The notes under the pieces were generated by a model. It was not told the DNA's origin. It searched no databases and saw only the letters and a program-made list of their open reading frames with translations. A stretch of 64,000 bases of DNA from Brachycybe producta (Eukaryota > Arthropoda > Diplopoda > Playtdesmida > Andrognathidae): contig JAUPFP010000008.1 of NCBI GenBank assembly GCA_036925085.1, forward strand, positions 204,001 to 268,000. The letters run 5' to 3'. Below are positions 10,626 to 61,504 of this stretch, in pieces; the first letter of the stretch is position 1, and each line of letters opens with the position of its first letter. Both the position numbers and the translations under genes were made by a program.

Positions 10626-10933
10626 GCTCTGATTATTTATTCTGTCTTTCAGAATTTTGCTAGCAAAATTAACAAAAACTATGGAAATTGTTTTAGAAAC
10701 TAGAAGGGTAGCCTCAATCAGTTATGAAATATATATTTCATGATGATATCTTTCAAAATAAACTTTTTATAGACAAATATTTAAAAAATATCGTCTGCTT
10801 TTTAAACTTAGGTCATTTTCAAACTCGCATAAAAAACCTTATTTTGAATGACGACAAGAAAATTACCCTTCTAGTTTCTAAAACATACAATTATCTCTTC
10901 ATTTTGCAATCTGAAAGACAAAATAATCAAGAA
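10626..10933. repeat. Palindromic repeat family 1 (MITE-like), copy upstream of GPAT
   Basis: The left arm reads CTGATTATTTATTCTGTCTTTC and then GTTTTAGAAACTAGAAGGGTAG. The right arm reads CCCTTCTAGTTTCTAAAACAT, then CTGAAAGACAAAATAATCAAG. The arms are reverse complements with scattered changes, separated by a core containing CGCATAAAAAACC. It has no transposase and is about 300 bp long, as expected for a non-autonomous DNA transposon. Confidence 0.6.
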
Positions 10934-17642: not shown

Positions 17643-17908
17643 TCGAATTCTGGTTACTGTCTTTTAGGAGCAAAGTTAAGAGAAACTACAAAATGTGTTT
17701 TATAAACTAGAAGAGTAGAATAAACTGTTTATAGGCAACAATTATAAATTTTGTCTGCTTAAAATTTGAACGAAACTCACATAAAAAAGCTGATTTTGAA
17801 AGCTATCGACGTTAAAATAAAATTACGTTATTGAGTTGCCCCTTTGTTTTCTTAAAACACTTTCAAAGTTTCTCTTAATTTTGCTCCTGAAAGATCAATC
17901 TACAACCA
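17643..17908. repeat. Palindromic repeat family 1 copy with clear inverted arms
   Basis: The left arm TTTTAGGAGCAAAGTTAAGA-GAAACT (near 17,661) is answered by AGTTTCTC-TTAATTTTGCTCCTGAAAG (near 17,868), and GTGTTTTATAAACTAGAAGAG by TTCTTAAAACACTTTC. About 260 bp, no ORF. Confidence 0.6.
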
Positions 17909-21616: not shown

Positions 21617-22249
21617 AAGCAAAGGGTGGCGCTGATCAAGCGCCAAATTGAATAAGCGCCAAATTGAACAAACGCCAATCTGAACTAACGCCAAACTGAA
21701 TAAACGCCAAATGGAACAAACGCCAAACTGAATAAAAGGCAAATGGAACAAACGCCAAACTGAATAAGTGCCAAATGGAACAAACACCAAACTGAACAAG
21801 CGCCAAACTGAATAACCGCCAAAATGTGATAAAGACATTGTTAGGTTTGGTTAGGTTTGGTTAAGTTATTTTAGGTTAGGTTTGGTTAGGTAATTTTAGG
21901 TTAGGTTAGGTTTGGTTAGGTTAGGTTAGGATGTTCTGTTTGTAAATCTGCACAGTCTGACGTCTATAAAAGCTCACAATATTTGGACCATCAGAATTTA
22001 CAAAAAACCTGAATAACCACCAAACTGAATAAACGCCAAATGGAACAAACGCCAAATGGAACAAACGCCAAACTGAATAAGCGCCAAATGGAGCAAACCC
22101 CAAACTGAATAAGCGCCAAATGGAAGAAACGCCAAACTGAATAAAAGCCAAAAATTTGGCGGTTATTCAGTTTGGCGTTTGTTCTATTTGGCGCTTATTC
22201 AGTTTGGCGTTTGTTCAATTTGGCGCTTATTCAGTCGCCCCAAGCAAAG
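21617..22249. mobile_element. Foldback-type DNA transposon with 8-bp target duplication
   Basis: The element is 21625-22241, flanked on both sides by the identical octamer AAGCAAAG (21617-21624 and 22242-22249). Its left end GGTGGCGCTGATCAAGCGCC and right end (reversed) GGGGCGACTGAATAAGCGCC are inverted. Both arms are built of 16-bp units, CGCCAAACTGAATAAG alternating with CGCCAAATGGAACAAA. The left arm runs about 21640-21830. A second block in the same orientation lies at 22010-22150. An inverted block lies at 22155-22235, so the last two would form a hairpin. The middle (21839-21931) is a GGTTAGGTTT/TTAGG-rich tract. Long inverted ends made of short tandem repeats are the hallmark of foldback (FB-like) elements, and an 8-bp duplication points to the hAT type. 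No transposase. The long translated frames with WRLF repeats are by-products of the repeat. Confidence 0.75.
21839..21931. repeat. Interstitial TTAGG/TTTGG-rich tract inside the foldback element
   Basis: Tandem GGTTAGGTTTGGTTAGG-type sequence with a few interruptions (AATTTTAGG). TTAGG is the telomere unit of many arthropods, but here the tract is short, degenerate and sits inside a transposon. Confidence 0.6.
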
Positions 22250-40773: not shown

Positions 40774-43239
<2,466 letters not shown>

Positions 43240-57327: not shown

Positions 57328-57431
57328 AGCTCCATCTGCCCTCTCCGACCTGTAAACAGAAGCCGTCCTTTGTCCTAAGTCTCGTGATTGTGCCTCACGA
57401 GGCTTCGTCCGTCCTTTCTATGTTGGAGCCA

Positions 57432-57790
57432 CGTATGGAGACCCTCGATAGCGTCAAAGTCAACCGCGTGGCGCCTGTCTGTAAAACCGCGTATGGAGAC
57501 CCTCGATCACGTCAAAGTCAACCGCGCGGCGTCCTTTGTGTTGGAACCACGTGTGGAGACCCTCGATAGCGTCAAAGTCGACCACGTGGCGCCTTTGTAA
57601 AACCGCGTATGGAGGCCCTCGATCACGTCAAAGCCAACCGCGCGGCGTCCTTTGTGTTGGAACCACGTATGGAGGCCCTCGATAGCGTCAAAGCCAACCG
57701 CGTGGCGCCTTTTTATGTTGGGATCATGTATGGAGGCCCTCGATCACGTCAAAGCCAACCGCATGGTACCGTTTTTGTGGAATCGCGAAA
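57432..57790 (+). repeat. Higher-order tandem array, six units of about 60 bp in ABABAB order
   Basis: Units begin with CGTATGGAGACCCTCGAT or CGTATGGAGGCCCTCGAT at about 57432, 57490, 57550, 57606, 57666 and 57727. Odd units read GATAGCGTCAAAG and end GTGGCGCCT. Even units read GATCACGTCAAAG and, except the last, end GCGGCGTCC. Two distinct monomers alternate, so the true period is about 118 bp. Confidence 0.8.
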
Positions 57791-59752: not shown

Positions 59753-61504
59753 ATGGCTACCTCACACGATAATACGGGGTCCCTGTCTGATCACCAGGGT
59801 TCGCACGAAGATCTGTTGGAAGTACCCGTGACTACTGATGTGACACCACCGCCGCGGCCGACTGGGGCCGAGTTTGACCACCTGTCACAACAAGTGGCTG
59901 CACTTTCGACTCGCATGTCTCAGCTCATAGACGACCGATTCACACCGAATCGGCCGACTACACCACGGCGGACAACACGCACACACCGACTTCGCGACGA
60001 TGACTCGGACGCCTCTTCAGCCTCCTATGTTGGCTACAGAGAGCGTCACGATCGTTACGAAAGACATTACACACCGCACACACGTCATCTACCGCGTAAC
60101 CCTGACTGGCAACAACAAGGGCAGTCAGATGATCCGCGTCACAGAGATGAGCGTGCGGAAATACCGATTACGACACGTGCTGATTCTCCTCACTCGCTTG
60201 TCCGGGTTGCACGTAGCGGTCGCCGCTCGACACCCCCGGAACAACAGCCTAACCAAGGAGCGACACAAGGCACTTCAGTTTACGCGCCACGTTTTCCACC
60301 GCAAGGGGTAGGTCTGATGCCGGCTGGAATGTCAAACGTCCAGGATGGCATCTATCGACCAACCCCCAGAGAACCCTCCGTGGAAGAGTTCAATAAGAAA
60401 TACAGCGGTCGCCACCCTGCCGATTCAATCCAAAAATTCAACGGATTGACAGGTTTCCGTCCCTTCCTGGAAGAATTCGAGGAAGTGGCACACCTGTACG
60501 GTTGGAAAGACCACCACAAGGAGGAATACATCACGGGGTGTTTCACTGGGGCCGCCCGTACGTGGCTGAGTAAACTGAGGTATGAGCTTCAGGACATTCC
60601 TTGGCCAGCACTGAGAGTACAGATGGTAGATACGTTCGGGAAGCCGAACGAACTGGCCATCTTGGAGAAAAAGTATACAGAGATGCTCCAGAAGGAAGGT
60701 GAGAGTACACAAGCTTTCATCTGGGAGTTTATGATACTCGGCGACCGAGTTTACCCGCAACTTGACGATCAGCTGCGTATAAGCCAGTTGCGCCGCGCTC
60801 TACATCCCACCATACAGAACGCCGCGCACCACGCATCTACGACGTCGTTCAAGGACTTCGCAAACGCCGTCCTCAATATGGAGGTGGTCTTGCTGTCCTT
60901 GGATAAATGGCCGACGGAACCAAAACCCGCAGCTGATTCACAGTCGGGTAAAGGAGCATCGAAGACCGACCAGGAGCCGGCGGCAGCCGCCAGCCCTAAA
61001 GACAAACCACACCGGTCTAGGCATGATAAAAAGCCTAGTCAGACTGCTGCCACCAATTCAAACCGACACTCTGCAACGGACCCCCAACCAGAGACCACTC
61101 GCACGTTCGACAAGAGTAAGTCGACGTGTTATAACTGTGGCAAATTGGGGCATTTCGTCCGTGAGTGTCGGCAACCAAAGAAGAAGGTTGCAATCAAGCA
61201 GTTTGGGGAGCCGGTTACCGACTATGACATCAAAGGAGAGGTGCCTGAAACGGATATCATCACCGAAGACGGCATTGAGTTTGCCCTGATAAGAGTGGCG
61301 GGACAAATCCGCCGGATCCCTCTTCCAGCAGCAGACTCAGCCGCCGGAGCACCTCCTCCTGACACATCCGACAATGACAGCTCTGACCACTCTGAAGACA
61401 TACCAATCAAAGTGCTCGACCGAGCTCCTGCACACAAATGGACCTCGGGCGAGCCGATCAAGTGGCCACCCACGCTGTCAAGAAACCAAACGCGACGAAA
61501 ATAA
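59753..61504 (+). CDS. gag: Gag-like retrotransposon capsid polyprotein
   Basis: A 583-residue ORF starting in a strong context (ACCATGGCT). Residues 1-200 are low-complexity and polar, with many charged and proline residues. Residues about 205-385 are a helical region typical of retrotransposon Gag capsids, with a GAARTWLSKL-type block followed by a long EF/LR-rich stretch. A single CCHC zinc knuckle C459-X2-C462-X4-H467-X4-C472 lies after a basic linker and would bind the element's RNA. An acidic 110-residue tail follows. No protease, reverse transcriptase or integrase is fused, and none is seen in any frame downstream. Composition is far richer in GC than the host genes. It could be an intact Gag of a non-autonomous element or the remains of a longer one. 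The LTR at 56,621 may or may not belong to it. Confidence 0.85.
   Translation: MATSHDNTGSLSDHQGSHEDLLEVPVTTDVTPPPRPTGAEFDHLSQQVAALSTRMSQLIDDRFTPNRPTTPRRTTRTHRLRDDDSDASSASYVGYRERHDRYERHYTPHTRHLPRNPDWQQQGQSDDPRHRDERAEIPITTRADSPHSLVRVARSGRRSTPPEQQPNQGATQGTSVYAPRFPPQGVGLMPAGMSNVQDGIYRPTPREPSVEEFNKKYSGRHPADSIQKFNGLTGFRPFLEEFEEVAHLYGWKDHHKEEYITGCFTGAARTWLSKLRYELQDIPWPALRVQMVDTFGKPNELAILEKKYTEMLQKEGESTQAFIWEFMILGDRVYPQLDDQLRISQLRRALHPTIQNAAHHASTTSFKDFANAVLNMEVVLLSLDKWPTEPKPAADSQSGKGASKTDQEPAAAASPKDKPHRSRHDKKPSQTAATNSNRHSATDPQPETTRTFDKSKSTCYNCGKLGHFVRECRQPKKKVAIKQFGEPVTDYDIKGEVPETDIITEDGIEFALIRVAGQIRRIPLPAADSAAGAPPPDTSDNDSSDHSEDIPIKVLDRAPAHKWTSGEPIKWPPTLSRNQTRRK

Follow-up and report, generated by a model that had tools for sequence, protein, structure and literature searches.

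The window analysed here, a stretch of 64,000 nucleotides from Brachycybe producta, holds a 617-bp sequence in which short tandem repeats and telomere-like DNA are enclosed between two identical octamers. This raises the question what kind of element it is, which enzyme could move it, and how DNA resembling telomere repeats came to form its core. A sequence-only reading had proposed a foldback transposon with tandem-repeat arms, and had linked its 8-bp target-site duplication (TSD) to hAT transposons. These proposals were followed up by searching the 295-Mb assembly (442 contigs); in what follows, L numbers are loci fetched from the genome and C numbers are contigs.

Structure of the element in the window

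The 617-bp element (21625-22241), with the termini quoted in the earlier reading and the octamer AAGCAAAG on either side, could be seen directly at 21617-22249 (Table 1). From left to right it consists of a terminus, a forward array, a telomere-like tract, a 60-bp segment, a second forward array, a short joint, an inverted array and the other terminus; the two 16-bp termini differ from each other. Arrays of 16/32 bp were called by TRF at 21641-21823, 22009-22152 and 22155-22235, and the proposed TTAGG-like core was recovered by the same program as a 5-bp GTTAG array (21840-21930). The claim of inverted arms holds in so far as inverted 16-bp arrays are present at the ends, but these do not form a simple pair: the arms are asymmetric, with a second forward array to the right of the core and inversion only in the 2-9 units at the right end. 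Folded as a single strand, the element reaches -131 kcal/mol, as compared to -70 ± 4 kcal/mol for 20 shuffled sequences, none of which folds as well (z -14.6). Foldback elements are a known element type, and the element in the window is a non-autonomous one (MITE), since no reading frame of at least 120 aa overlaps it.

Table 1 Features of the foldback element and its flanks, in window positions
Feature	Position	Strand	Evidence or remark
Left target-site duplication AAGCAAAG	21617..21624	.	Read in window sequence; other copies have duplications of their own
Left 16-bp terminus GGTGGCGCTGATCAAG	21625..21640	+	866 genomic left-end matches, control 0
Left forward array, 16-bp units (period 32)	21641..21823	+	TRF and unit scan
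Telomere-like tract of TTAGG, TTTGG and variants	21840..21930	+	TRF; length differs between copies
60-bp segment of the core, including TATAAAAG (21965-21972)	21942..22001	+	433 matches, control 0
Second forward array, 16-bp units	22009..22152	+	TRF and unit scan
Inverted array, 16-bp units	22155..22225	-	TRF and unit scan
Right 16-bp terminus GGGGCGACTGAATAAG (minus strand)	22226..22241	-	805 genomic right-end matches, control 0
Right target-site duplication AAGCAAAG	22242..22249	.	Read in window sequence

Copies in the genome

A mobile foldback element should be present at dispersed places with the same ends, and this is what the genome search revealed. The left end (28-mer, at most 3 mismatches) gave 866 matches, the right end (23-mer, at most 2 mismatches) 805 and the 60-bp core (at most 3 mismatches) 433, with no match to the reversed-pattern control in each case; the core matches listed, about 100 places, are exact ones only. 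The copy number of the family is thus of the order of 800, and since cores are about half as numerous as ends, many copies must lack the core or carry a diverged one. For closer comparison, the best 40 of 1723 candidates were taken, counting the copy in the window, and the other 39 were fetched. Both ends are present in 36 of these 40 scored copies, and all 36 carry 16-mer arrays that are mutually inverted at the ends and asymmetric. Of the other four, L025 is without TSD and consists of a pair of left ends in facing orientation, and L030, L031 and L034 have a right end alone.

Perfect TSDs of 8 bp flank 27 of the 36 two-ended copies; two have 9 bp (L011, L016), one has 7 bp (L042) and six have none (L014, L021, L035, L036, L037, L047), L021 being one base short of a match. 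The number of independent sites is 34, because two pairs of loci, L026/L027 and L036/L037, lie in stretches that occur twice among the contigs. When flanks were swapped between copies, identical 8-mers appeared in only 4 of 1260 pairs, which can be accounted for by the L026/L027 duplicate and two copies that carry TTTTTTTT. Sites without the element were also found. When the flanks of L038 are joined, they align with L024:3346-3619 (87.7%, 277 columns), where CTTTTTGT occurs once. The joined flanks of L041 likewise align with L014 (77%, 173 columns), where the target is present once and differs by one base. The insertions of L039 and L032 lie inside dispersed repeats that occur elsewhere without the element, here at lower identity.

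The dispersed repeat that received the L039 insertion also occurs in the window (10663-10787, 10772-10908 and 17779-17887) and in several fetched loci.

Age of the family and changes in array length

The family is young and abundant. Thirty ungapped cores from fetched copies differ from their consensus by 1.0% per site on average, with 9 of the 19 differences falling on one shared site; the fetched copies were chosen by their similarity to the one in the window, and the family may therefore be more diverse. The motif TATAAAAG is present in 33 of 36 cores, which carries little weight at such low divergence. All 36 copies share the layout of a forward array, the core, another forward array and the inverted array, with a stray unit called inside the core in five, and the number of units ranges from 3 to 18 in the left array, from 3 to 10 in the second forward array and from 2 to 9 in the inverted array. 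L027 is one 16-bp unit longer than its duplicate L026. Far larger arrays occur in L069 (about 41 units) and in L071, where one array counts 33 units and the telomere-like tract measures 370 bp. On contigs C1-C5 there are 90 exact left ends, and for 61 of them an exact right end lies inside 15 kb, with spans from 128 bp and a median of 531 bp. The plain reading is that array length shifts through slippage or unequal exchange, which would account for these differences. With near-identical cores and very variable arrays, the family is well suited to the study of foldback arm expansion, and also to asking whether arm repeats serve as transposase-binding sites.

Source of the transposase

The element is probably a young, high-copy, non-autonomous foldback transposon of the cut-and-paste type, with a trans-acting transposase that would most likely be Mutator-like (MULE) and with the 16-mers as putative additional binding sites. 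Among the classes considered, MULE is the most likely, and is preferred over hAT because the TSD is 8, sometimes 9 bp long and both termini start with GG. MULE TSDs are given as 8-11 bp, and as 8 bp for the arthropod MULE clade Spectre (PMC6446971); the TSDs found here fall in this range, except for the one 7-bp copy. Most arthropod MULE terminal inverted repeats have G or C as their first three bases (PMC13359780). The element starts with GGG at one end and with GGT at the other, where the third base is off this rule.

The genome holds 21 matches to the MULE domain (PF10551), and at none of these 21 loci are element ends or 16-mers present inside about 1.5 kb of the domain; MULE membership is therefore not claimed. 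All seven frames from MULE loci that were scanned score above the MULE cut-off, and three of them (L048, L057, L059) have C2H2-finger matches, one of which, in L057, passes its cut-off. No transposase was seen in exact-end pairs of 1465, 1542 and 2229 bp or at one left end without an exact partner, with the frames scanned in L069; these four fetched spans are array-expanded, clustered or interrupted copies. Two longer exact-end pairs on C2, which span 5.0 and 7.9 kb, enclose other listed ends, and a further pair on C5, with its right end at 3196585 and its left end at 3208291, spans 11.7 kb.

Two observations on the MULE loci themselves may be added. Frames of at least 882 aa at L062-L068 (C89, C5, C2, C38) are more than 99% identical and form divergent pairs that flank repeated inverted segments at three sites. 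At L058, a tandem array next to the MULE gene was considered as a family member and rejected, as it belongs to another foldback, the flanking octamers of which (CCTTATAT and TTTTATAT) match imperfectly. This foldback (L058:2341-3171, end approximate) has tandem arms of 27 and 31 bp, is without a telomere-like core and adjoins the MULE frame.

A hAT-driven MITE, the 8-bp TSD of which would be made by a hAT transposase, was an origin suggested by the sequence-only reading, and the TSD of 8 bp, present at 27 of the 36 copies, has the length that hAT elements make as well. Genes of this type are common in the genome (149 matches). We nevertheless consider this origin unlikely, since two copies have 9-bp TSDs and the termini, GGTGGC and GGGGCG, are presumably not of hAT type. 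Furthermore, comparison of the 66 of these 149 matches that lie on C1-C5 with 187 exact ends placed three inside 10 kb of an end and none between a listed end pair, so the search for a hAT gene carrying the ends of the element yielded none among these 66. One of the three, at C1:9613897 with a frame of 850 aa, lies 4.4 kb from a left end that has no right end in the exact list. No listed end was present inside 10 kb of its equal-scoring counterparts on C3 and C5.

Galileo elements make 7-bp TSDs and have termini unlike those of the element in the window, which makes it improbable that the family is a P-superfamily foldback of this kind with arms that hold THAP-domain binding sites. The attraction of such an origin is that the tandem-repeat arms of Galileo contain extra transposase-binding sites (PMC3688188). 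A Merlin-type MITE is a very improbable third candidate: the genome gave no PF12762 match, which is weak evidence against it, as the model was positive in 1 of 14 control genomes and may miss animal Merlin. Merlin elements have 8-9-bp TSDs and GG-type ends, in its favour. Finally, the very long arrays of L069 and L071 could point to a plain satellite of 16-bp units that lacks mobile copies; this reading is contradicted by the TSDs and unfilled sites, found at dispersed places with fixed ends.

For a foldback transposon moved by a MULE enzyme, the following course of events can be envisaged. A trans-acting transposase, which is most likely Mutator-like, would bind the two distinct 16-bp ends, and the repeated 16-mers are putative extra binding sites, by analogy with the arm repeats of Galileo. 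The element would then be excised and inserted by a staggered cut of 8 bp, sometimes 9 bp, and the arrays and the telomere-like tract may alter their length through slippage or unequal exchange. Of this picture, the shared ends of the dispersed copies, the TSDs, the unfilled sites and the unequal array lengths are directly observed, and the MULE source, the binding role of the 16-mers and the way in which arrays change are inferred.

The telomere-like core and a second foldback family

The idea of a telomere-like core gained from the genome search. Exact (TTAGG)8 gave 459 + 7077 matches (overlaps counted; control 1), and among the matches listed is an array from C1:5001 on the strand expected for a left chromosome end. 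TTAGG is thus very likely the host telomere motif, although the array starts 5 kb inside the contig. In the fetched DNA up to L074, telomere-like runs outside the family were found at two loci, L073 and L011:766-795, and both lie in other elements of foldback or inverted-repeat type.

The first of these, L073:893-1554, belongs to a second foldback family (also L075-L088) with arms of 18-bp units, a telomere-like core and the termini GGTTGGGGGTCACTACAGC and GGGACTGGCTCACTACAGC. Its left end has 467 genomic matches (at most 2 mismatches; control 0). Among nine copies read, the TSD is 8 bp in five and 9 bp in two, L075 is without TSD and L077 without the canonical right end. The best matches between the two families are confined to the telomere-like tract, and as far as sequence comparison goes the second family is unrelated to the first. 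The other locus, L011:597-927, is a 331-bp inverted-repeat element of which a single copy was seen; its telomere-like core is short, and its 9-bp TSD reads TTCGCTATG. Besides the tract, it has TAACCCTTTCTCCCTAA and TCTAAACTAAAC at the core borders in common with the second family, which suggests that the core may have been exchanged between these two rather than captured independently.

Interstitial telomere repeats are often interpreted as traces left where chromosomes fused or breaks were repaired. The presence of telomere-like tracts inside at least two unrelated foldback families implies that transposition alone can spread such tracts. The core-derived pattern GGTTAGGTTYGGTTAGG gave 2121 genomic matches (control 0), and the approximately 100 matches listed, all on C1, form 25 clusters. 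By position, 11 of these lie in the first family and two in the second. The next six, which were read, all belong to the second family, with both arms in L083, L084 and L087 and incomplete copies in L085, L086 and L088, and two further clusters lie about 300 bp from left ends of that family. In total 21 of the 25 listed clusters were assigned to the two foldback families and the remaining four were left aside, a proportion that applies to part of one contig, is favoured by a pattern drawn from the families' own cores and has plain TTAGG arrays outside its count. It is conceivable, though we hold it only tentatively, that the core is a module which foldback MITEs acquired repeatedly or exchanged and which would now make up most of the short interstitial telomere-like DNA; that it was first seeded by telomerase healing of a broken element end is a conjecture. 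If this is true, mobile elements and not old chromosome fusions would be the main source of interstitial telomere-like DNA here.

Comparison with known foldback elements

Foldback elements with short tandem repeats in their arms include TU of sea urchins, with 15-bp units and an 8-bp TSD, and FB of Drosophila; the likeness of the present family to both is one of description. To our knowledge, neither TU nor FB has a telomere-like core. Among described systems, the Mutator/Foldback element Tm1 of root-knot nematodes is similar in its composite tandem-repeat arms of variable length, its MITE-like non-autonomous copies and its TSDs of 8-10 bp. It differs in that the TSD is mostly 9 bp, that a copy with a transposase carrying FLYWCH and MULE domains exists and that copies are far fewer, and the available part of its description does not mention a telomere-like core (PMC3169594). 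Tetris of Drosophila virilis is likewise a non-autonomous foldback with tandem-repeat arms, a TSD of 8-10 bp and no transposase found, and its arm repeats expand to satellite-like arrays. Its units are 220 bp long, however, only three structurally complete copies exist, and a telomere-like core goes unmentioned in the accessible portion of the account (PMC4079207).

The MULE-like Rehavkus elements have a minisatellite just ahead of the 3' terminal repeat, comparable to the second forward array here, but they differ in a 9-bp TSD and a PHD-finger transposase, none having been found for the present family (PMC6446971). Galileo of Drosophila has long, internally repetitive arms and provides the model in which such repeats are transposase-binding sites; it belongs to the P superfamily, and the likeness is by description and not by sequence (PMC3688188). 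A foldback element or MITE with a TTAGG-like core was not found in the literature as covered by titles, opening abstracts and best matches. The possible novelty is that a host-telomere-like core recurs in unrelated foldback families, for which no published account was found.

Other features of the window

In the window, no tRNA was detected by ARAGORN and no Rfam family reached its gathering score. A Homeodomain frame (PF00046) lies at 42544-43239, about 20 kb from the element. Further along, a gag-like frame (Retrotrans_gag, zf-CCHC) occupies 59753-61504 in a stretch of raised G+C, and a 60/116-bp tandem repeat is present upstream of it at 57421-57766.
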